Source: Thermogemmatispora sp.
GTDB taxonomy: Bacteria > Chloroflexota > Ktedonobacteria > Ktedonobacterales > Ktedonobacteraceae
Direction: 5' to 3'
Length of the DNA: 36,716 bases
Assembly: GCF_019683755.1 (NCBI RefSeq)
Contig: NZ_JADGHT010000007.1
Coordinates: 1-36,716, forward strand
The first letter of the stretch is position 1. Each line of letters begins with the position of its first letter. The position numbers and the translations under genes were made by a program. The notes beneath the pieces were generated by a model. The model saw only the letters and a program-made list of their open reading frames with translations. It made no database searches and was not told the DNA's origin. Below, in pieces: positions 5,289 through 31,102 of this stretch.

Positions 5289-8234
5289 TCATGATGGCCT
5301 GCCTGTCGCTTGTTGCCTGGCCAGATAGAGCGCGCGCAGGACACGCTCGGGTGTCAGCGGCAACTGGCGCAGACGCACGCCGGTCGCATCGGCGACGGCG
5401 TTGGCTAGGGCTGGGGCTATCGCTGCAATGGCAATCTCGCCAATATCACGGATGTCCAGCGGGTCGGCTCCATCACCCTCCATCAGGACAATGCTCGTTT
5501 CTGGCATGTCTCGCGTGCTCAAAATACGATAATCACTCAGATTAGTCGTCAGTACGTTCCCTTGCTGATCATACACCATTTCCTCGCACAGACTATAGCT
5601 CAGTCCTTGGGCGATGCCACCTTCGATCTGCCCTTCGGCAATGACTGGATTGACAATGTGACCGCCATCGACCGCTGTAACAACCTTCAGCACGTGTATT
5701 CCACCAGTCTCTGTATCGACTTCGACTTCTACGCCTTGGGCCGCAAAGGTCGGTGTGGTACAGGCTTCATTCCAGGAGGTGGTTGCACTGATCTGTCTGG
5801 GTTGTTCGCCATAGAGGGCCTGCAGAGCGGTTTGGGAAAGGCTGAGGCTCTGACCGTTGGGAGCGGTAATCGTGTAGTCTGCCAGGGTCAGGTTCTCCGC
5901 TGGCACTTTGAGCAGACGGGCTGCTGTGGCAAGGAGCTGATGCCGCACTTGCTCTGCTGCTTGCCTGACAGCGTGAACGCAGGCGTAGAGGGAGGATGAG
6001 GGGTCGCTGCTCGTCTCGAAAGGAGTGCAGTCGGTGTCAGGCGCGTGGACTAGGATATCTTCGGGACGCACTCCAAGGACGTCGGCAGCGATTTGGGCCA
6101 GAATGGTATGGCTGCCAGTGCCATTCTCGGGAAGGCTGAGCAGCAGGTTGAAAGAGCCGTCCTCGTTGAGTTTGAGGGTGGCACTGCTCAGGGAAGGCTG
6201 CCGGGGATCAGGCAGGTGCACGGCCAGTGCAAGACCCACTCCACGTTGGATACGTCCTCCCTGACGGGAACTGCCCCGCCCTGATCGGCGTTTCTCTCGC
6301 CAGTTGAGCTGCTCCTCAACAACCTGCAGGCAGTAGGGCAGGCCACAGTGTTTCAGCCGCCTCTCTGCTGTGGAAGCGGGGGCCGAGCCTGGCGAAGATT
6401 GGTAGCCAGCGCCAGTCAGCACAAAGGCAGGATTGGCATCTCCTTCTTTGAGCCAGTTTTTGCGCCGCAGCACCAGGGGATCCATGCCCAGACGGCGCGC
6501 AATTTCATCCATGTGGCTTTCGAGGGCAAACAGACCTGCCGTGGCTCCCTTGCTGCGGAAGGTACCTGCGGGTGGCAGATTCGTATAGACTGCCTGGGCG
6601 CTGTAGCGTACATTCGGACAGGGATACAGCGCGAGGCTATTTAAGCCAGTCCCAAGGGCGAGAGTATTGGCGTGGCTGCCATAAGCGCCGGTGTTAATCA
6701 AGGCCAGCATCTGATTCGCGATGATCGTTCCGTCCTGTCGCAGTCCGGTCTTAAGACGAATGATTTGGCTTGGAACGACGCGACTGCTGCGGAATTCGTC
6801 CGCGCGGCTGTATTCCAGGCGTACTGGGCGATCGGTGGCCAGGGTGAGCAGGGCGCAGAGATCCTCAACGATAAGGTCATGCTTGGCCCCGAAGCCACCT
6901 CCGACCCGCGGTGCTATGACGCGAATGCGTCGTGGCGCTAAACCGGTCAGGGAGGCGAGGATCCGGCGCACGTGATAAGGTACCTCACTGCTCGTGCGTA
7001 CGACAAGGCGCTCGTCCTCGTCCCAGTAGGTGATGGCAACGTGGTTTTCAAGGGCCGTGTGCTGAATCTGGGGAACAATGTATTCGCCCTCTACAATCAG
7101 CTCGGCACTGGCAAAGGCCCGTTCGACATTGCCTTGCTCATACTGGACACGGGCGGCAATGTTGCGATCAGCGTCGTAGATCCGGTACGATTCCGGTTCT
7201 GGGTGCAGGCGAGGTGCCCCCGGCTCCAGTGCCTGGCGAGGATCAAAGACCGCGGGTAGCGGTTCATAGTCGACTTTGATCAGCTTAAGGGCTTGCTCGG
7301 CGATTTCTGCGCTCTCGGCAGCAACGACGGCGACCCGGTCTCCGACATAGCGGACAATATAGTCCAGGCTGTACTGATCATGTGGCTCAGGCTCGGGCCA
7401 GGATTGACCGGCGCTGGTGTAGGGAATGCGTGGAATATCTTTGTAGGTTAAGACTGCATGCACCCCCGGTAAGGCCCGCGCCTCTGTGGTGTCAATCTCG
7501 CGGATGATTGCATGAGCATGGGGACTCGTGAGAAGGCGGGCATGCAGAAGACCGGGCAAGGTGCAATCATCGGCGAATGCTGGCTTGCCCGTGACCAGTT
7601 TGATGGCGTCGATTTGGCGCTCAGGTCGCCCCATCATAACATGGATGCGCTGCACTCCTCCTCCAGCCTGCTCTGCTGTCTGCCTTTGCTCGGACGGCTC
7701 CGGCAAAGCGCGTCCAAGGTCCCAGGGGCGAGTACGCGCGCCACTGTCGGGGATGCTCAACGGCTCAATATCTTCACCACGTAGCAGGGCTGCAGCTCGC
7801 TGGACAGCCTGTACGATCCGGTTATAGCCGCTACAACGGCAGAGATTCCCCGCTAGGGCTTCGCGAATCTCTTCCTCGCTGGGATTGGAGTTGCGTTGCA
7901 AAAGAGCGTAAGCCGAAAGTAACATACCAGGTGCGCAAAAACCACAGTGGACCACACCGGCATCGATAAAGGCCTCTTGTAAAGGATGCAGACGGCGAAA
8001 AGAGCCTAGGCCCTCAACCGTGGTCAGCGTGGCACCTGCTGCCTGCATGGCCAGCATAATGCAGCTTGGACGCGGTAAGCCGTCAATGAGCACCGTGCAG
8101 GCACCACAATGTCCGTGATCGCAGCCGTGCTTGACGCTGAAATAACCTTCGCGCCGAAGGACGTTCAGCAGCAGCTCGTTCGGGGCAACGTCCAGGCTCT
8201 TGATCACTCCATTAATGCGCAGTTCTAGTTCCAT
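5289..8234 (-). CDS. xdhD-like: xanthine dehydrogenase-type enzyme, fused 2Fe-2S and molybdopterin subunits
   Basis: The 981-residue protein joins the small iron-sulfur subunit and the large molybdenum subunit of the xanthine oxidase family. Residues 1-80 are a plant-type 2Fe-2S ferredoxin domain (Cys38, 43, 46, 58). Residues 85-150 are the second 2Fe-2S domain (Cys97, 100, 132, 134). After a linker at about 150-205 comes the molybdopterin part with VGGGFGAK (444-451) and FRSKGATAG at 559-567. The C-terminal DIGE carries the expected catalytic Glu933, followed by PALANAVADATG. E. coli XdhD has the same fused layout and a separate FAD protein (YgfM) next to it. The likely role is hydroxylation of hypoxanthine/xanthine, although the FRSKG site differs from the usual RGxG, so the heterocyclic substrate is uncertain. 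Its ATG lies 4 nt after the stop of the FAD gene, suggesting translational coupling. Confidence 0.92.
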   Translation of the reverse strand: MELELRINGVIKSLDVAPNELLLNVLRREGYFSVKHGCDHGHCGACTVLIDGLPRPSCIMLAMQAAGATLTTVEGLGSFRRLHPLQEAFIDAGVVHCGFCAPGMLLSAYALLQRNSNPSEEEIREALAGNLCRCSGYNRIVQAVQRAAALLRGEDIEPLSIPDSGARTRPWDLGRALPEPSEQRQTAEQAGGGVQRIHVMMGRPERQIDAIKLVTGKPAFADDCTLPGLLHARLLTSPHAHAIIREIDTTEARALPGVHAVLTYKDIPRIPYTSAGQSWPEPEPHDQYSLDYIVRYVGDRVAVVAAESAEIAEQALKLIKVDYEPLPAVFDPRQALEPGAPRLHPEPESYRIYDADRNIAARVQYEQGNVERAFASAELIVEGEYIVPQIQHTALENHVAITYWDEDERLVVRTSSEVPYHVRRILASLTGLAPRRIRVIAPRVGGGFGAKHDLIVEDLCALLTLATDRPVRLEYSRADEFRSSRVVPSQIIRLKTGLRQDGTIIANQMLALINTGAYGSHANTLALGTGLNSLALYPCPNVRYSAQAVYTNLPPAGTFRSKGATAGLFALESHMDEIARRLGMDPLVLRRKNWLKEGDANPAFVLTGAGYQSSPGSAPASTAERRLKHCGLPYCLQVVEEQLNWREKRRSGRGSSRQGGRIQRGVGLALAVHLPDPRQPSLSSATLKLNEDGSFNLLLSLPENGTGSHTILAQIAADVLGVRPEDILVHAPDTDCTPFETSSDPSSSLYACVHAVRQAAEQVRHQLLATAARLLKVPAENLTLADYTITAPNGQSLSLSQTALQALYGEQPRQISATTSWNEACTTPTFAAQGVEVEVDTETGGIHVLKVVTAVDGGHIVNPVIAEGQIEGGIAQGLSYSLCEEMVYDQQGNVLTTNLSDYRILSTRDMPETSIVLMEGDGADPLDIRDIGEIAIAAIAPALANAVADATGVRLRQLPLTPERVLRALYLARQQATGRPS

Positions 8235-8238
8235 CAGG

Positions 8239-9198
8239 TCAGGCTCTCCCTTCCGAGGAGGTGATATCGCGCCAGCGTGCTATATTGGCAGCTTCTTCGA
8301 GGACTCGGTAAGCAAGGTTGGCCCCACAGACACGCCGATAGCCCTGGCTAGCCCGGAAATCGGCGGGAGGGCGAAAGTCAGCCAGCCCGGCCTGAACTGC
8401 GGTGGCCAGTAAGCGCAGATCCTGGACAGGCTGACCCTCCAGGTGCCGCTCAATAGTGAGCAGGCGCTGTGGTTCCATATTGGCCCCACCTAGCGCTAGG
8501 CGCACGGTGCGATAGCGCCCATCCTCGACCTCCACCAGGGCAGCAGCACTGACCAGGGCCGTATCAATAGCGCTGCGCCCGACTCGCTGCAGCGCTGTGC
8601 CCCAGCCGCGGCCAGGGGGAGCAATTCGCACTTCGATGATCAGTTCCTGGGGGCGTCGCTCTAGTAAGAGCCGCTGGCAAGGGATACGTCGCTCCTGTTT
8701 TCCTTTGTAGGTTACTCCAGACAGGGCGAGGCCCGGGCGCTCCGGCGTGCCGCCGCGTAGATCGACCTGCGTTTTCTGACCAGAGCGCAGGACGACCTCA
8801 GCATCGACGACTGCCAGTGCTGTCAATAGATCAGCTTGCGAAGCGGCTCCAAGCGCGAGCGTACCACCGAGGGTGGCGGCATTGCGAATGAGCGGAGAGG
8901 GAGCTGAATACTGGGCGGCCTGAGCGAGCAGACCACCGAGAAAGCTCTTGAGCAGTGGCGCCTCCGCCATGCTCTGCAAAGTCGTCATACTTCCGATGCG
9001 AATCCCATGCTGGTCTTCTGAAATATAGGCCAGGCCCAGATCGCGTAGATCAACGACAGCCTGGATGCTTTCGTCGTTCTGACCTAGCAGATAAGTGCCG
9101 CCGGCCAGTGGCACCGTTTTGATGTCGGAGCGCGAAAGCAGAATGAGGGCATCATCAACGTCCTCAACCCAGTGATATTCAAGTAAGTTTGGCAGCAT
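8239..9198 (-). CDS. FAD-binding subunit of xanthine dehydrogenase-type enzyme
   Basis: This is a medium-subunit homologue of molybdo-flavoenzymes (XdhB/CoxM/YgfM). It passes electrons from the iron-sulfur centres through FAD to the acceptor. Visible signatures are the N-terminal PLAGGTYLLG FAD loop, VVDLRDLGL, and IRNAATLGGTLALGAASQAD, where family members have IRNvATiGGN. A C-terminal region of the CO-dehydrogenase flavoprotein type follows. I start it at the ATG at 9198, which has a CGAGGA ribosome site 8 nt upstream, giving 319 residues. A TTG at 9228 would add ten residues with no such site. It directly precedes the fused iron-sulfur/molybdenum gene by 4 nt and follows adenine deaminase by 110 bp. 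Confidence 0.9.
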   Translation of the reverse strand: MLPNLLEYHWVEDVDDALILLSRSDIKTVPLAGGTYLLGQNDESIQAVVDLRDLGLAYISEDQHGIRIGSMTTLQSMAEAPLLKSFLGGLLAQAAQYSAPSPLIRNAATLGGTLALGAASQADLLTALAVVDAEVVLRSGQKTQVDLRGGTPERPGLALSGVTYKGKQERRIPCQRLLLERRPQELIIEVRIAPPGRGWGTALQRVGRSAIDTALVSAAALVEVEDGRYRTVRLALGGANMEPQRLLTIERHLEGQPVQDLRLLATAVQAGLADFRPPADFRASQGYRRVCGANLAYRVLEEAANIARWRDITSSEGRA

Positions 9199-20465: not shown

Positions 20466-20831
20466 ATGGTTGACCTGAAGCAGGCGCTGGGCCGCTTCCT
20501 GACCATCCCAGGTGTAAGGATGGCTATTCTCGTCGGACGAGACGGCCTGCTGATCGAGGGGGTCCCCCGCGATAGCAAGGAGGATCTCGAAGCCGTGGGA
20601 GCCATTATGACAAGTGGCCTGAGCGCCGCGGAGGCTCTGGGACGGGAGATCGCTCGCGGTGGGCTGGTTGGCGCTCTCGTCGAGTTCGAACATGGCTTGG
20701 TGAGCGCTGACCCCCTGGGCGATTTCGCGCTGATCGTGACGGTCTTCGACTCCGCTTCAGCTCTGGGGCGGGTCCGCCATCTGATCAAAAGCAGCCGCGA
20801 TGAGATCCTCGAAGCGCTCGATATCGCTTGA
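20466..20831 (+). CDS. roadblock/LC7 domain protein (MglB-like), first copy
   Basis: The 121-residue protein is essentially one roadblock/LC7 domain, the fold of MglB, the GTPase-activating partner of MglA. The opening helix plus IPGVRMAILVGRDGLLIEG (about 14-32) and the central EAVGAIMTSGLSAAEALG helix are typical. The later strands LVSADPLGDFALIVTVF also fit. Such proteins form dimers that bind small Ras-like GTPases. ATG 20466 has GGAGGAG just upstream. It is the first of three genes on this strand (roadblock, roadblock, GTPase), about 190 bp before the second roadblock gene. A weak hairpin with a T-rich tract lies between them, so expression may be partly separate. Confidence 0.9.
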   Translation: MVDLKQALGRFLTIPGVRMAILVGRDGLLIEGVPRDSKEDLEAVGAIMTSGLSAAEALGREIARGGLVGALVEFEHGLVSADPLGDFALIVTVFDSASALGRVRHLIKSSRDEILEALDIA

Positions 20832-20881
20832 TCAGGCGCCTTCGCTCGCCGCTCGCTCACGAGCTTGCCCGCTTGTTTGTG

Positions 20882-20930
20882 GCTAAGCTGCTCGTTTAGC
20901 TATCTTTCTGTCTTTCTTTCTTCAGTTTTT
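20882..20930 (+). terminator. weak hairpin with T-rich tract after roadblock 1
   Basis: GCTAAG (20882-20887) pairs with TTTAGC (20895-20900). A pyrimidine-rich stretch ending in a T-run follows at 20901-20931. This looks like a partial intrinsic terminator that could attenuate transcription into the next genes. Confidence 0.4.
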
Positions 20931-20963
20931 TCATGACGCCCGCTGCTCGCTGGCGCTCATGAA
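20930..20963 (+). promoter_or_regulatory. hairpin upstream of roadblock 2
   Basis: TTCATGACGCC (20930-20940) pairs with GGCGCTCATGAA (20952-20963) over 11 bp with one bulged C. It lies after the T-rich tract and about 57 bp before the next start codon, so it is a leader structure rather than a terminator for the plus strand. Confidence 0.4.
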
Positions 20964-21020
20964 GCTGTGCCTGTGCTGTGCACGCTAAGCTTGTTGTACC
21001 GGACCGGAGGCGGCGCGTAC

Positions 21021-21515
21021 ATGGAGCAATTATCAAATCTGGTTATTTCGGATCATGAACTTGAGGCTATCCGGGCAACACTCAGCAAGTTGTTGCACGA
21101 TACCAGCGCGTCCACTGTGATGTTGCTCGATAAAAGCGGCCAGGTGATCTCTAACTTCGGCAATGGGGTGCGCCGCAATGTGACCTCCCTGGGCGCCTTG
21201 TTGGCCGGCGCCTTCTCCTCCTCTCGCCAGGTGGCTGAACTCCTCGGGGAGAAGGATTTCCGCACTATTTTCCAGCAAGGTATGCATGAGAATATCTATA
21301 CCACCCTGGTTGAAGAGCAGTGGCTGCTGGTGATCGTCTTCGATAAACTTACTCATATCGGCCTGGTCAAGGTGCTCTCTAAAAAAGCTAGCGATGAGCT
21401 GGTGCGCGTCCTGGCTCGTGTCAAAGCCGATACGTCTCGTCGCAAGACGTCCGTGATTAATGTTGAGTTCCGTTCCTCTGTCGAGGATACGATCGATTTG
21501 CTTTTCCGCGATTAG
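21021..21515 (+). CDS. roadblock/LC7 domain protein (MglB-like), second copy
   Basis: The 164-residue protein has a roadblock/LC7 core at about residues 15-125 (SASTVMLLDKSGQVISNFG, then LLAGAFSSSRQVAELLGE). A C-terminal extension of about 40 residues (RRKTSVINVEF...EDTIDLLFRD) is absent from the first copy. The paralogues are clearly different in sequence, so they may form a heterodimer or have separate roles as GTPase activator and exchange factor; this is inference. ATG 21021 has GGAGG 10 nt upstream. An earlier in-frame start at 20967 has no support. The GTPase gene begins 27 bp after its stop, which indicates an operon. Confidence 0.9.
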   Translation: MEQLSNLVISDHELEAIRATLSKLLHDTSASTVMLLDKSGQVISNFGNGVRRNVTSLGALLAGAFSSSRQVAELLGEKDFRTIFQQGMHENIYTTLVEEQWLLVIVFDKLTHIGLVKVLSKKASDELVRVLARVKADTSRRKTSVINVEFRSSVEDTIDLLFRD

Positions 21516-21542
21516 GGCCTGCTTCCGAGGTAACTGGTTTCT

Positions 21543-22118
21543 ATGGCTCTTATCAATATTGCTACTCACGAGATCCATTGCAAAATTGTCTACTACGGCA
21601 TTGGATATTGTGGGAAGACTACCAATCTGCAGTACGTCTATAAGAGCATTAACCCCGCTATCCGTGGCGAAATGCTCTCAATCGCGACTGAGACTGAGCG
21701 CACGCTCTTTTTTGATTTCCTCCCCCTCGACCTCGGTACTGTGCATGGTTTCCGCACTCGCTTCCATCTGTATACGGTGCCTGGCCAAATTCTCTACGAG
21801 CGTACTCGTCTGGCTGTCCTCAATGGCGCCGATGGCATCGTCTTTGTTGTGGATTCGCAAGCGGAGAAGTTTGAGGAGAATGTCCAGAGCATTGCCGAGC
21901 TGGAGATGTATATGCGTCGTCTCGGCAAAGACCTCAGCCATTTCCCGTTTGTGATGCAGTGGAATAAACGTGATCTTCCCTCGGCTTTGCCTGTTCATGT
22001 GCTCGACCGTTATTTGAATCGCCGACGGGTGCCGGCTTTTGAGGCGGTTGCCTCCAGTGGAATTGGCGTCTTCGCTACGCTGCGCGCTATTAGTAAGAGT
22101 GTCATCGCCCAGCTCTGA
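21543..22118 (+). CDS. mglA-like: MglA-like small Ras-type GTPase
   Basis: The 191-residue protein closely resembles Myxococcus MglA, the polarity and motility GTPase. The P-loop is GIGYCGKTT (19-27). ATETERTLFFDF holds the intrinsic Arg finger at residue 53, TVPGQ holds the catalytic Gln82, and NKRD (141-144) gives guanine specificity. By my recollection Arg53 and Gln82 carry the same numbers as in M. xanthus MglA. All five G motifs look intact, so it should bind and hydrolyse GTP. With two roadblock proteins just upstream it forms a complete switch module. In this lineage it need not act in gliding; polarity, development or signalling are alternatives. The ribosome site (GAGG, 13 nt away) is loose. 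Confidence 0.95.
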   Translation: MALINIATHEIHCKIVYYGIGYCGKTTNLQYVYKSINPAIRGEMLSIATETERTLFFDFLPLDLGTVHGFRTRFHLYTVPGQILYERTRLAVLNGADGIVFVVDSQAEKFEENVQSIAELEMYMRRLGKDLSHFPFVMQWNKRDLPSALPVHVLDRYLNRRRVPAFEAVASSGIGVFATLRAISKSVIAQL

Positions 22119-25652: not shown

Positions 25653-26120
25653 TTATGGCTCTATTTCGGCGAACGGTCCCTCACGGTGGGCAACCATCTC
25701 CAGCAGAGTCTGTAAGCCTTCCTGAGCAGCGCGACGCTGAGCTGAACTCAAGTTAGTAGCCGCTTGAAACTCATCTTCATCCAGCACCTGCACATTGCCC
25801 TGGCGATCAACCCAGACATCGAGAAAAAGATCGACCTGCTCAATACGGTCTTCCAGGAAGACCGCTGGCTCGGCGATATTACAGTACCAACCCTTGCGCT
25901 CACCATCCTTCCCCGCAATTGCAAAGATATTGAACCAGCGATCAGTATAATAATACTCCGTAAAACAGTCACCCGTTTCGAAGCGCGCGTAGCCAAGGTC
26001 CCGATCGGGCCACGTCCAAAAGGCGCGGATGATGCAGACACGCGAGGTAGCAGCAAGCACTTCACCCTGGTAGGAGAAGAGCGCTTCACCTTGCGGATTT
26101 TTCTTAACGATGGTGATCAT
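25653..26120 (-). CDS. DUF402 family protein
   Basis: The C-terminal two-thirds match DUF402 (FomD/YgaC-like) proteins, small beta-barrel proteins, some of which are nucleoside phosphate hydrolases. Recognisable parts are GDCFTEYYYTDRWFNIFAI, GWYCNIAEPAVFLEDRIEQV and DLFLDVWVDRQGNVQVLDEDEF. These carry the conserved Tyr/Asp/Glu pattern expected to bind a metal and nucleotide. The start is uncertain. ATG 26120 gives 155 residues beginning where family similarity begins. ATG 26177 adds 19 residues, with AGGA too close for good initiation. A 26345 start is unlikely. Its exact substrate is unknown. It is divergent from the SerRS-like gene. Confidence 0.75.
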   Translation of the reverse strand: MITIVKKNPQGEALFSYQGEVLAATSRVCIIRAFWTWPDRDLGYARFETGDCFTEYYYTDRWFNIFAIAGKDGERKGWYCNIAEPAVFLEDRIEQVDLFLDVWVDRQGNVQVLDEDEFQAATNLSSAQRRAAQEGLQTLLEMVAHREGPFAEIEP

Positions 26121-26416
26121 CTTTGGCAATCCCCGCGGCAATCCCAGACGGGTTAGGCCGTTGCCTGCATGACTCATCCGTCCTGGGAGAAGGGTAGCAG
26201 CAAGAGCCTGCCTTGTCAAGTGGCGAGAGAGCCAGATGAGAAAGCCGCCAAAGCGCTTTAGAAAGCATTCGGGTGGCACAAGGTGGCATTCCCACAAGAA
26301 AGAGGAGGAAGCCAACATCCTGAACGGCGCATGCCAGAAAGGCAAGACTCCTGCGCTCTAGCCGGCTTCTGCTTTCCTTTGAAGGAAGCACGCATTGAGA
26401 GAACGACTAACCTGGC

Positions 26417-26444
26417 TTGCTCTACTCACTCGCTATGCTATACT
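26417..26444 (+). promoter_or_regulatory. promoter abutting the SerRS-like start codon
   Basis: TTGCTC (-35, 3/6) and TATACT (-10, 5/6) are 16 nt apart, with TGC just before the -10 giving an extended -10. The -10 ends only 8 nt before ATG 26453. Initiation is therefore expected within one or two bases of the start codon, i.e. a leaderless message. Confidence 0.55.
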
Positions 26445-26452
26445 AACGGCGT

Positions 26453-27718
26453 ATGCTTAGTCTCGACTTACTTCGTCAGCATCCCGAGCAGGTACGGAAA
26501 GGACTCCAGAAACGTCAGGTCTCGGTAGCCTTGGAGGAGATCTTACGTCTGGCAGAACAGCGTGATGGCCTGGCCAGGCGCTGCGAGGGACTCTACAGCA
26601 CGCTTGAGCGTCTGCGGAAGCAAAGTCATGCAGCTCCTGCCAACCGGCGTGCCAAGCTTGACAAGCAGAGCGCAACCATCAGTGAGGAGATCCGCAGCCT
26701 GGAATTGCAGATCGCCGATCTGGAAACGCGCCTGCGTCTCTTGCTTTGGCCCTTGCCTAATCTACCCCACCCCGATGTCCCCACCGGCTTTCTGCGTTCA
26801 GCCAATCGCGAGCTGCGTCGCTGGGGAGTACCCATGAGCTTCTATTTCTCCCCACGCTCGTTTCGAGAGTTGGCCAGCACACTAGGAGTAATCGATGGCC
26901 GTGCCGGCAGCCGCCTGAGCGGTAGTCAGTTTGCAGTCGTCGGCGGAGCCGGCGCACGCCTCTGGAGAGCGCTGCTGACCTTTGCCCTTGATGTCTTCAC
27001 GCGCGAGTGGGGCTACAAGGAGGTACAACTACCTCTTCTGTTGAAATACGGCGCCTTACTGGCTGCTGGGCAGTTTCCGACCCTGGAGCCGCAGAGCTAT
27101 AGCTGCCAGGCCGACGAACTCTATCTAAACCCAGGCGGCGAACCCTCTCTGATCAGCCTCTACAGCGATAGTGTGCTCGTTGCCGAAGCCTTGCCCCTAC
27201 GCGTGGTCACTTGGACCCCGGTCTTCCATCGCCATGGCGGTCCAGCCTCCTTACCTCCGAGCACTGCCCGCCTGCCCTGGCATCAGCTCAGCGAGGTACA
27301 GGTGATGCTATTAGTCCGGCCTCAAGAATCCTATGCGCTCCTGCAAACATTGCTGTTGCAAGTTGAAACTTTGCTCCAGCGCCTGGAGCTGGCCTATCGT
27401 GTCGTCATGCTCTGTAGCGGCTACTTGCCCTTTGCAGCAGCAATGACCCTTACGGTTGATGCCTGGCTGCCAGCTCAGCGCCGCTTTCTGCCCCTGGCCT
27501 CAGTGAGCAATTATGAGAGCTTTCAGGCGCGGCGTGCCAATGTCCGCTATCGAACCCCCGATGGCCAGCTCGAGTATCCCCATAGCCTGGGCGCCTGCGC
27601 TCTGAGCATTGAGCAGACGCTTGCCGCCATTCTAGAAGTCTATCAACAGGCCGATGGAAGTGTCGTCATACCCAAGGTGCTCCGTCCCCTGGTAGGCCTG
27701 TCCTTGCTCACTCCCTGA
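26453..27718 (+). CDS. seryl-tRNA synthetase paralogue with eroded catalytic motifs
   Basis: The 421-residue protein is laid out like bacterial SerRS. The N-terminal two-helix coiled coil covers about residues 1-100 (MLSLDLLRQHPEQVRKGL at the start) and normally grips the long arm of tRNA-Ser. The class II core follows, with recognisable VVIPKVLRPLVG at the end. Key residues are changed. Motif 2 FRxE is FHRH (258-261). The TxE serine loop is GGE (228-230). The RVHQF-like segment reads LPWHQL. Motif 3, normally GLAvGR, is CALSIEQ (382-388), losing its Arg. QARR (358-361) remains. Aminoacylation is therefore unlikely, while tRNA binding is plausible. Insect SLIMP is a known non-catalytic SerRS paralogue. 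No ribosome site precedes the ATG, and tRNA-Ser(UGA) lies 157 bp downstream on the same strand. Confidence 0.85.
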   Translation: MLSLDLLRQHPEQVRKGLQKRQVSVALEEILRLAEQRDGLARRCEGLYSTLERLRKQSHAAPANRRAKLDKQSATISEEIRSLELQIADLETRLRLLLWPLPNLPHPDVPTGFLRSANRELRRWGVPMSFYFSPRSFRELASTLGVIDGRAGSRLSGSQFAVVGGAGARLWRALLTFALDVFTREWGYKEVQLPLLLKYGALLAAGQFPTLEPQSYSCQADELYLNPGGEPSLISLYSDSVLVAEALPLRVVTWTPVFHRHGGPASLPPSTARLPWHQLSEVQVMLLVRPQESYALLQTLLLQVETLLQRLELAYRVVMLCSGYLPFAAAMTLTVDAWLPAQRRFLPLASVSNYESFQARRANVRYRTPDGQLEYPHSLGACALSIEQTLAAILEVYQQADGSVVIPKVLRPLVGLSLLTP

Positions 27719-27875: not shown

Positions 27876-27959
27876 GGAGGGGTGGCAGAGTGGTTTAATG
27901 CAGCCGTCTTGAAAACGGCCGGGCGATGAGCCCCGGGGGTTCGAATCCCCCCCCCTCCG
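27876..27959 (+). tRNA. tRNA-Ser(UGA)
   Basis: Acceptor arms GGAGGGG (27876-27882) and CCCCTCC (27952-27958) are followed by discriminator G (27959). The anticodon loop CTTGAAA has TGA at 27910-27912 and is closed by GCCGT/ACGGC. A long variable arm (GGGCGATGAGCCC-like) and GTTCGAATC in the T arm confirm a class II serine tRNA reading UCA. The 3' CCA is not encoded (GCTC follows). A weak TTCCAA/TAAACT promoter candidate lies at 27840-27868, so it may have its own start or be read through from the SerRS-like gene. Confidence 0.96.
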
Positions 27960-27987
27960 CTCTGCGTTGATGGGAAGCGGCTGGCCT

Positions 27988-28239: not shown

Positions 28240-29802
28240 GTGTCTACGGTGAGTTTCGCGACGACATTAGATCGGGTCAATCTAGCTGATCTCTTGCGCC
28301 GCTTAGAGGCCCATGAGAAAAGCGGGATGCTGGTCGTAAAGCAAGGCTCCCTCTGGGTGGAGTTGTATTTCAGCCAAGGGCGCTTGCTTTGTATTGGCCC
28401 AGTGCGGGCTCAGTTGACGCTGGGCGATCGCTTAGTGCAGGCCGGGGTGATCTCCCAGGCCGCCCTTGCCCATGTGATGGCTGTTTTGCGGGAACGCGGC
28501 GAGGAGCCAGGTGAGACCCGCATTGCTCTCCTCCTGATGGAGCTGGGCTATGCAACGCGTGAGCAACTGCGTGCCTGGGCGGCGCGCGAGGCCTCACGTG
28601 TGCTTGAGGTGCTGCTCTCCTGGCGTTCTGGTGAGGTCTATTTCGAAGAGGGGCGCACGCCTCCACCATCTCGCCTGCTCGTCTCCCTCTCTCCTTCTGC
28701 TCTCTTGCCTGCTGCCCCTGCTCAGTCGGTCTCTCCATCGCTTGCTCAAAGCCAGGTACCACCTTCTATGGCTAATCCTGTCTCTGTGCCCGCTCACCCT
28801 GGCGCTGGACCCTCTCAGGTGCGCTATGAACAGTCGTCGTTCTCGCAGCCGTTGCCTCCGGTGCCGCCCTCCCAGCTCTCCCAACCAGTGCAGCCAGCGA
28901 GCCAGGAGCCGCCTGCTCAACAGGCTCCTCAGCCGCGAGTGACGCAGGCCCTGCCTGAAACAGGCGCGGCTCCGGTCCCTCAGCGTCAGGGGCGCGGACG
29001 CATTGATCTCAGCTCGCTCTTTGATCCTGATGCTCTGGCTCGCCTTTCGGAGGTCGCTTCGGCGGCTTCCTCGTCAGGGGCTGATGCTGCTCCTGGGCAG
29101 CGGCAGCCTTCTACTCCCCAGCAGGCCGCTTCGGCTTCCACTGCGCCCAGTAGCTTGCCCGCTCCCCGCCCAATTATGATGCCCTATACACCGCGGCGCA
29201 TTGATGTCTCTTTTATGCATCCTGAACTGCGTCTGAAGCCGGCTGATCTCTCTCCACTGCGCTCTGGCAGTGTGGAGATCCCACTGACGCCAGATGAGTG
29301 GCGTGTCTTCGGTGTCTGTATGGAAGGAGAAAAGACCCCTCTGCAGATTGCCCAGGCCCTGGGCATGCCGCTAGAGCATGTCTATATTCTGCTTGGGGAG
29401 CTGATGGCTTTGGGGCTGGTCCAGCATCCCTATATGCAGACGCCGTATCCTGTTCAGGAGCTTTCGCCTGCCGCACTGCCTCCAATGGGTGGCCCCTATG
29501 CGCCGCAGCCGCAGGTGGCCGGCTCGCAGCCCTGGGTCCCTACCCCCGCTCAGGCGTGGCCGGTCCCGCCTCAGGCACCAGCCCAGACCACAGGGACCTT
29601 CGCTCCTGCCCCCGCTTCGACCTCGGTTCCGCAGTCGCCGCTCTATGTGGAAACTGAATCGCAGTGGGGGAATGGCGGTAATGGCGCCCGCTTCATTGTG
29701 GGACGTGGCTGGGGAGTGCAGCCAACCAGACCGCTCCCGCCGAGCAATGCCGCGCAATCCCCTTATCCTGCTTCAGTTGCGGGCTCCCAGCTTGGTAGAT
29801 AG
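28240..29802 (+). CDS. DUF4388 (PATAN-like) protein with Pro/Gln-rich linkers
   Basis: The 520-residue regulatory or adaptor protein has an N-terminal DUF4388/PATAN domain at about residues 1-135 (LADLLRRLEAHEKSGMLVV, LYFSQGRLLCIG, LGDRLVQAGVISQAAL, SGEVYFEEG). This domain is found in bacterial two-component and GTPase-linked signalling proteins. A Pro/Ser/Gln/Ala-rich linker follows (about 140-330). A winged-helix-like segment at about 347-397 (LTPDEWRVFGVCMEGEKTP, ALGMPLEHVYILLGELMALG) precedes a second low-complexity tail. The start is GTG 28240 with AGGCGG 9 nt upstream. There are no membrane segments. The next gene is an AAA+ enhancer-binding protein on the same strand, 175 bp on, so they may be functionally linked. 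The specific role is unknown. Confidence 0.82.
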   Translation: MSTVSFATTLDRVNLADLLRRLEAHEKSGMLVVKQGSLWVELYFSQGRLLCIGPVRAQLTLGDRLVQAGVISQAALAHVMAVLRERGEEPGETRIALLLMELGYATREQLRAWAAREASRVLEVLLSWRSGEVYFEEGRTPPPSRLLVSLSPSALLPAAPAQSVSPSLAQSQVPPSMANPVSVPAHPGAGPSQVRYEQSSFSQPLPPVPPSQLSQPVQPASQEPPAQQAPQPRVTQALPETGAAPVPQRQGRGRIDLSSLFDPDALARLSEVASAASSSGADAAPGQRQPSTPQQAASASTAPSSLPAPRPIMMPYTPRRIDVSFMHPELRLKPADLSPLRSGSVEIPLTPDEWRVFGVCMEGEKTPLQIAQALGMPLEHVYILLGELMALGLVQHPYMQTPYPVQELSPAALPPMGGPYAPQPQVAGSQPWVPTPAQAWPVPPQAPAQTTGTFAPAPASTSVPQSPLYVETESQWGNGGNGARFIVGRGWGVQPTRPLPPSNAAQSPYPASVAGSQLGR

Positions 29803-29977
29803 GAGGAGCTGTTAGGAAGCCCGGTCGACCACTGGCGGCGCCTTCTCAACTGAGGAGGCCTTCAGCTCGTCTGGTGGCCTGGCTTCCCCTGGTCGTTATT
29901 ACCTGCTGATTACCTGCTGATTCGCGCTGGCCCCCAGGCCCTAGCTTTCGGCTCTTGGTTGAACTGGAAGGGTGGGG

Positions 29978-31102
29978 ATGATGTTGCAGGGTTCAGATTT
30001 TCATCGTGAGAGCGCCCAAGCCGCTAAGGCGGATTCGCTCGCTGCCCATGATGAATTGCTGACTGCTCTGGAACGCTTCGGCCTGGTCATCGGACGCAGC
30101 CAGGTGATGCGCTCTATTGCTAGCCTCATTCGACAAGTTGCGGCTTTCCCAACAACGACGGTCTTGCTCCAAGGTGAAAGTGGTACTGGCAAGGAGGTGA
30201 TTGCTTATGCAATCCATGCCCTCAGTGGTGGCTCCTCTCGCCAGTTTGTGGCTATTAATTGCGCCGCCATTCCTGAAACCTTGTTGGAAACGGAGCTGTT
30301 TGGCGTCGAGGCCGGAGCCTATACCGATGCTCGCGTGACGCGCGATGGCTATCTCGCTCGAGCTGATGGCGGTACCCTTTTCCTCGATGAAATTGCTTCC
30401 ATGCCCCTTGTACTCCAATCTAAGCTCTTGCGCTTCCTGGAAACACGCTCCTTCCGTCGTGTCGGAGGCACTCATGAGATCCAGGTCCGCCTGCGTGTTA
30501 TTTCAGCCTCTAATGTCGATCTTGCGGCTGCGGTCGCTCGCCGCGAGTTCCGTGAGGATCTCTTTTATCGACTCAAAGTCTTTACCATTCATATTCCTCC
30601 TCTGCGCGAGCATCCTGAAGATATCGTCCCCCTAGTCGACTACTTTTTGCGCCAGCAGGGAGACAAAGAAGGACGCGCTCAACGCCTCAGCTCCGAAGCC
30701 CTGGCCTTGCTGGAACGCTATAGCTGGCCGGGCAATATCCGCGAACTGCGCAGCGTTGTCCAGCATGGACAGATCATGTGCGAAGGTGATGAGATTCGTG
30801 TTGAGCATCTCCCCGCCTATTTGCGATCTGCTAGTAGTGGTGCCCTACAACGTTTGCTGGAACTCAAAGATCAGCTGCATTTGCCGCCCGAGGGGGTGAA
30901 ACTGGAGGAGTTTCTTGCTGAGATTGAGCAGCGCTTTATCCGCGAGGCGCTAGAGCGCTGTAACTATAACCAGGTGAGAGCTGCGGCTTTACTGGGTCTC
31001 TCAAGAGATCAGTTGCGCTATCGCCTGGCACGCAGCGGAGCTAAGAGCCGAGAACATGCGCAGAGCACGGGTCTTTCCAGGCTGCACCCGTGCTCTGGCT
31101 AG
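29978..31102 (+). CDS. AAA+ enhancer-binding-type regulator without receiver, GAFTGA altered
   Basis: The roughly 374-residue protein has the AAA+ and Fis-type DNA-binding modules of NtrC-family sigma-54 activators. Only about 40 residues precede the AAA+ domain, so there is no receiver or sensor domain. Walker A is GESGTGKE, Walker B is GGTLFLDE, and FREDLFYRL carries the Arg fingers. WPGNIREL is the family's end-of-domain motif, and NQVRAAALLGLSRDQLRYRL is the C-terminal HTH. The sigma-54-contacting GAFTGA loop reads GAYTDA (30314-30331). The Phe-to-Tyr change is mild, but Gly to Asp is not. It may work with a different polymerase form or be a poor sigma-54 activator. ATG 29978 follows GGAAGGG by about 7 nt. 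The last codons run into a 12-bp inverted repeat. Confidence 0.9.
   Translation: MMLQGSDFHRESAQAAKADSLAAHDELLTALERFGLVIGRSQVMRSIASLIRQVAAFPTTTVLLQGESGTGKEVIAYAIHALSGGSSRQFVAINCAAIPETLLETELFGVEAGAYTDARVTRDGYLARADGGTLFLDEIASMPLVLQSKLLRFLETRSFRRVGGTHEIQVRLRVISASNVDLAAAVARREFREDLFYRLKVFTIHIPPLREHPEDIVPLVDYFLRQQGDKEGRAQRLSSEALALLERYSWPGNIRELRSVVQHGQIMCEGDEIRVEHLPAYLRSASSGALQRLLELKDQLHLPPEGVKLEEFLAEIEQRFIREALERCNYNQVRAAALLGLSRDQLRYRLARSGAKSREHAQSTGLSRLHPCSG
31061..31097 (+). terminator. 12-bp hairpin overlapping the end of a coding region
   Basis: CAGAGCACGGGT (31061-31072) pairs perfectly with ACCCGTGCTCTG (31086-31097). The stop codon TAG is at 31100-31102, so the structure is inside the final codons. 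No T-run follows. It resembles the stop-overlapping hairpin at 434-476. Confidence 0.5.

Follow-up and report, generated by a model that had tools for sequence, protein, structure and literature searches.

The stretch of DNA analysed here (the window, 36,716 nucleotides) comes from a 4.89 Mb genome of Thermogemmatispora, a genus of heat-loving bacteria (Ktedonobacterales), and carries, at positions 26453–27718 on the forward strand, a complete open reading frame that begins with ATG and encodes a 421-residue paralogue of seryl-tRNA synthetase (SerRS), designated serS2. The nearest named relatives as judged by serS2 are Thermogemmatispora species, at 80–81% identity. A divergent DUF402 gene (25653–26345, reverse strand) lies on the upstream side. 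Downstream, the gene for tRNA-Ser(UGA) (27876–27960, forward strand) starts 157 bp past the serS2 stop codon and is followed by a DUF4388 gene (28240–29802, forward strand); all three are conserved syntenic neighbours. Positions 28240–31102 encode the DUF4388 protein and an AAA+ protein of the sigma-54 activator type that carries a Fis helix-turn-helix; both are syntenic across the family. Elsewhere in the window (20466–22118), two Roadblock/LC7 proteins precede a small Arf-like GTPase, with 98–100% protein identity across the genus.

The tRNA gene next to serS2 is the only one for a UGA-reading tRNA-Ser that a pattern search detected in this genome, and a relative whose genome is a single contig has one tRNA-Ser gene each for UGA, GGA, CGA and GCU (G004). 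A link to selenocysteine was considered and set aside, the neighbouring tRNA being an ordinary tRNA-Ser(UGA) with G73. No RNA families beyond two tRNAs were found in the window. Immediately upstream of serS2, a promoter-like block (TTGCTC-16-TATACT, 26417–26444, forward strand) was picked out by eye; it ends 8 bp before the ATG and was not called by a consensus promoter scan of the window, which returned no promoters. Its retention in the five genomes aligned suggests that expression of serS2 is maintained and perhaps leaderless.

That the encoded protein is built as a SerRS is clear from several kinds of comparison. Pfam matches cover Seryl_tRNA_N (residues 1–105) and tRNA-synt_2b (220–397), the closest solved structures by both sequence and fold are SerRSs, headed by that of Aquifex (2dq3), and the predicted fold aligns with several SerRS structures at a TM score of about 0.9. 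The AlphaFold model (13 sequences) has a mean pLDDT of 85.9, dropping below 50 solely at residues 208–213 and within a rebuilt motif 2 loop (260–276), where a one-residue insertion is common to all six Thermogemmatispora proteins. The N-terminal coiled-coil arm is the tRNA-Ser-binding element of SerRS. In serS2 it is retained at residues 27–98 (26531–26746, forward strand) as two confidently modelled helices (27–60 and 63–98), with a Seryl_tRNA_N score of 50.5 bits against 48–59 in intact orthologues. Also present is class II motif 1 with its invariant proline, P194. An earlier note, made from the DNA sequence alone, had described a full-length frame of SerRS layout with its coiled coil kept, and both points hold.

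The catalytic centre is a different matter. Canonical bacterial SerRSs (TIGR00414; Aquifex 2dq3, Thermus thermophilus 1sry) share with serS2 the full-length fold, the arm, motif 1 and the scaffold of the C-terminal core but possess catalytic residues in the TxE loop, motif 2, the RxHQF/KVE segment and motif 3 that serS2 lacks; the roles of these sites are those established for class II synthetases generally. Against the NCBIfam serS model (TIGR00414), the window protein scores 275.9 bits, below the curated cut-off of 301.65, and Thermogemmatispora serS2 proteins as a group score 276–284 bits compared with 400–504 for catalytically intact orthologues.

Residue by residue, the alignment places G-G-E in the TxE loop where TAE is expected (residues 228–230, 27134–27142; GGA in the other five genomes), FHRH in place of motif 2 FRxE (258–261, 27224–27235; FHRD in the other five), PWHQLSEVQ in place of RxHQFxKVE (275–283, 27275–27301), with PWHQL for RxHQF at 275–279, and G380 and Q388, within SLGACALSIEQ (27590–27616), at the positions of the serine-site Asn and the motif 3 Arg, all on the forward strand. 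The substitutions listed in the earlier note (FHRH, GGE, a changed RVHQF segment and motif 3 Arg to Gln) are thus all present, and further losses come to light: Lys to E281, Glu to Q283, Asp to T334, Asn to G380 and Ser/Thr to C382. The note's broader statement that all three class II motifs are altered stands for motifs 2 and 3, together with the TxE loop, but not for motif 1.

The pattern is common to the genus. In all six Thermogemmatispora proteins, the Thr and Ala of TxE have become Gly-Gly (G228–G229), the motif 2 Arg is His (H259) and its Glu is Asp or His (position 261), the RxHQF Arg is Pro or Ser (275) and its Phe is Leu (L279), the Lys and Glu of KVE are Glu and Gln, the Asp of DxEVW is Thr, the serine-site Asn is Gly and the motif 3 Arg is Gln (Q388); the Glu of DxEVW is retained in five of the six. 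Since the same losses are seen in five further congener assemblies, three of them from named strains, an assembly error can be rejected. Across 71 other SerRSs, 44 alignment columns are at least 95% invariant; in the six Thermogemmatispora proteins, 15 of these are substituted throughout and a further 5 in part of the set. At the same columns, 30 of 34 intact SerRS-2 proteins show 0–1 deviations and the other four show 2–6. Near-invariant residues that persist in serS2 include P102–N103, Pro194 of motif 1 and the C-terminal QxxDG segment. The number of Lys and Arg residues in the motif 2 loop falls from 5.8 in intact SerRS-2 to 2.0 in Thermogemmatispora serS2.

On this residue pattern, catalysis by serS2 is very unlikely. 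Class II synthetases need the Arg residues of motifs 2 and 3 for ATP, and all six genomes have lost both, along with the Arg and Phe of RxHQF. Conservation at the substituted positions does not exceed that in the remainder of the protein, and nothing there thus points to a newly built active site. SerRS-derived ligases and albomycin-resistant second SerRSs offer precedents for an adenylate-forming or acyl-transfer enzyme with a new specificity (PMC9437257, PMC9032320), but with those four residues missing throughout the genus it is hard to credit that serS2 is another.

Charging of tRNA-Ser need not depend on serS2. As the earlier note predicted, the genome encodes a second, canonical enzyme (SerRS-1; G000:C319, 427 amino acids) with intact motifs and an NCBIfam serS score of 477 bits, and the possibility that a canonical SerRS is missing can be dismissed. 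The SerRS-1 proteins of Thermogemmatispora have a full arm and an intact active site. Two SerRS homologues were found in 38 of the 47 Ktedonobacterales genomes searched, and in the tree SerRS-1 forms one clade (support 100/100) and SerRS-2, the group to which serS2 belongs, another (99/97). An origin of SerRS-1 by acquisition from outside, with SerRS-2 as the vertically inherited copy, would fit the confinement of SerRS-1 to Ktedonobacterales among the Chloroflexota sampled, but in the tree SerRS-2 does not group with other Chloroflexota SerRSs. The six inactivated Thermogemmatispora proteins form a single clade (100/100) nested within Ktedonobacteraceae SerRS-2. Its stem branch measures 0.75 changes per column, whereas internal branches elsewhere in the family's SerRS-2 measure about 0.04–0.2.

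SerRS-2 is present in 25 of 29 Ktedonobacteraceae genomes, and outside Thermogemmatispora 18 of the 19 proteins have intact catalytic residues. Inactivity of SerRS-2 throughout the order is thereby rejected, the whole set of residues being lost only in Thermogemmatispora. The remaining protein, from a metagenome-assembled genome (G016; L032/L044, JAICIM010000162.1), is partly altered: six near-invariant columns deviate, with changes that include FRRD, Ser in place of the RxHQF Arg and LSAS in place of LNAS. SerRS-1 was not detected in that assembly, which is 85% complete, and the case may mark the start of active-site loss for a second time or may reflect an assembly that is incomplete. Two further families vary in the arm. 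In family f2, SerRS-2 (G036, G032 and G034; L105 8262–9512, L106 8530–9603 and L107 7552–8691 on the reverse strand) keeps most catalytic motifs intact but lacks the coiled-coil arm, its N-terminal helix joining PNLP almost directly. This is the converse of the window protein and recalls SerRS2-alpha or the carrier-protein ligases considered below. In family f4 (L060, L062, L063, L067 and L072), the motifs are intact and the arm is shortened.

The association of serS2 with tRNA-Ser(UGA) is widespread. The two genes are adjacent in all 25 Ktedonobacteraceae genomes that have serS2, and the order DUF402–serS2–tRNA-Ser–DUF4388–sigma-54 activator–MoeA–tRNA-Glu is found in the window and in each of the 11 other genomes for which wider flanks were compared, in some cases interrupted by inserted genes. 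In family f2 the pair is adjacent in two of three genomes (G032 and G036), the other window genes tested not being detected nearby. In family f4 the two lie 1.2 kb apart in one genome (G041); wherever else in that family the tRNA was located, it is far from serS2 or on another contig. Adjacency across families implies that the pairing predates the loss of catalysis. The association is old and perhaps no more than synteny passed down by inheritance, so that nothing certain about what the protein does today can be read from it.

Is serS2 simply on its way out? Catalysis could have become redundant through SerRS-1, leaving a gene that is merely not yet broken, and SerRS-2 has indeed been lost from four genomes of the family: one has a short broken stretch, interrupted by stops and large deletions, directly beside tRNA-Ser(UGA) (G014; L101, about 8076–8800, reverse strand), the gene is cleanly absent between DUF402 and the tRNA in another (G015), and it is also gone from G007 and G019. 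In these losses the tRNA stayed while serS2 rotted or vanished. The unexceptional conservation of the former catalytic positions would also fit slow decay. The Thermogemmatispora genes, however, look nothing like the G014 remnant. Pairwise dN/dS among the six is 0.13–0.24 at dS 0.07–0.82 (counted by a Nei–Gojobori-type method with fixed transition weighting rather than fitted by a codon likelihood model), with upper 95% limits of 0.19–0.26 from codon bootstrapping of four representative pairs. Intact SerRS-2 gives 0.10–0.16 and Thermogemmatispora SerRS-1 0.012–0.08. No stops or frameshifts were found in serS2 across the six genomes; in neutral simulations at 0.4 substitutions per site, about 11 stops arose on average and the frame stayed open in none of 500 trials. 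Low dN/dS, close to that of intact SerRS-2, and six open frames argue against decay, which we regard as highly improbable, and the idea of a pseudogene is rejected. The earlier note had asked whether orthologues share the substitutions under purifying selection; all five congeners do. After its long stem branch serS2 is constrained again, and because SerRS-2 is dispensable in some lineages its long retention in an inactive form in Thermogemmatispora is informative.

Where the constraint falls bears on what is being kept. Identity between inactive and intact orthologues is 0.49 in the arm, against 0.55 among the intact proteins themselves, whilst in the motif-bearing core it is 0.41 against 0.74. 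Pfam scores tell a similar story: 42–50 bits for the arm in Thermogemmatispora serS2 versus 48–59 in intact relatives, and 61–65 bits for the catalytic core versus 101–139. The net charge of the arm is slightly lower (−0.7 versus +1.7 in intact SerRS-2). Within the inactive clade, dN/dS is 0.17–0.27 for the arm and 0.12–0.18 for the core, the same order as in intact copies; with the core at least as constrained as the arm, the function retained need not centre on the arm. Such constraint on the core, together with the retained fold, would suit a SerRS fold turned to a job unrelated to tRNA, such as a scaffold, DNA or protein binding, or the binding of a different small molecule in a rebuilt pocket, and both SLIMP and human SerRS have side roles of this kind (PMC10817482). 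If the role had nothing to do with RNA, however, it is not obvious why the arm should be kept near the level of intact orthologues, and we consider this explanation rather unlikely, if the strongest of the alternatives.

How does serS2 compare with known systems? Amino acid:carrier-protein ligases have an intact catalytic core and lack the tRNA-binding arm, the opposite of the pattern in serS2, where the core is ablated and the arm kept. Such ligases, SLIMP and albomycin-resistant SerRS2 are the SerRS duplicates described in a review (PMC9437257), and serS2 matches none of them fully. Like the self-resistance enzyme SerRS2/AbmK, it is a second, divergent SerRS within one genome, but AbmK belongs to an antibiotic cluster and makes its host resistant to an inhibitor of SerRS (PMC9032320), whereas serS2 lacks catalytic residues and sits in a conserved chromosomal neighbourhood. 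Reuse of a class II fold without tRNA charging is likewise seen in inactive synthetase-like regulators such as HisZ, a HisRS derivative that regulates the biosynthesis of histidine (PMC9437257); serS2 differs in keeping the tRNA-binding arm whilst losing the ligand pocket.

The nearest analogue is SLIMP, a metazoan mitochondrial SerRS paralogue that has lost its catalytic pocket and kept its coiled coil, in a clade that evolves faster and is nevertheless retained (PMC10570016). The bacterial protein adjoins a tRNA-Ser gene and has an independent origin: in a tree built without animal sequences, it nests in the Ktedonobacteraceae SerRS-2 clade (100/100), rather than deriving from animal mitochondrial SerRS2. 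SLIMP works as a heterodimer with SerRS2-alpha, which has lost its arm (PMC10570016), and given the shared anatomy and the motif 1 and fold retained in serS2, one might imagine an inactive SerRS-2 pairing with SerRS-1 to provide tRNA binding or allostery in trans. Yet SerRS-1 of Thermogemmatispora, complete in arm and active site, needs no helper, so that an obligate heterodimer of the SLIMP type is not implied and becomes less likely; moreover, SerRS-1 and serS2 are only 30% identical and belong to deeply separate, well supported clades. We therefore view such a heterodimer as unlikely. In the literature searched, where subscription journals are mostly absent, no bacterial pseudo-SerRS has been described.

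Loss of the catalytic residues, continued selection and a tRNA-Ser gene next door point to a new, probably non-enzymatic job for serS2. The reading we favour, with a probability of roughly 0.6, is that its catalytic activity was lost in the Thermogemmatispora ancestor, charging falling to SerRS-1 in this genus, and that the protein was kept as a non-catalytic, putatively tRNA-Ser-binding factor. SerRS-2 would be an old second SerRS of Ktedonobacterales which, having lost amino-acid activation, was retained for this other task. The protein would form a homodimer of the SerRS type, its coiled coil still gripping the long variable arm of tRNA-Ser with the acceptor end unusable, and could act as a holder, regulator or selection platform for tRNA-Ser: a chaperone, a guide for processing or modification, or a sensor of uncharged tRNA-Ser. 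It might also regulate SerRS-1. Guidance of modification has an example in the SerRS–METTL6 complex (PMC11479938). The conserved arm and the adjacent tRNA-Ser(UGA) gene, the latter not mentioned in the earlier note, lend circumstantial support to tRNA-Ser binding, and the target may be the tRNA encoded next door. More speculatively, serS2 may have evolved from a whole SerRS, through ablation of the active site, into a regulator or chaperone of tRNA-Ser with a genetic link to the single-copy tRNA-Ser(UGA) under its control, which would make it an independent bacterial counterpart of SLIMP without a disabled partner. The earlier note's proposal of a bacterial pseudo-synthetase is in any event supported by the ablated site, the open frames, purifying selection and the canonical SerRS elsewhere in the genome.

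Inactive SerRS paralogues with a tRNA-binding arm are known from animal mitochondria, and serS2 would be a bacterial case. Ktedonobacterales present one gene in a natural series of states: active, lacking its arm, partly altered, dead yet under selection, rotting, and deleted. The series makes it possible to ask at what point a redundant synthetase turns into a new protein instead of disappearing. For serS2 itself, the neighbouring single-copy tRNA-Ser(UGA) is a specific candidate ligand.
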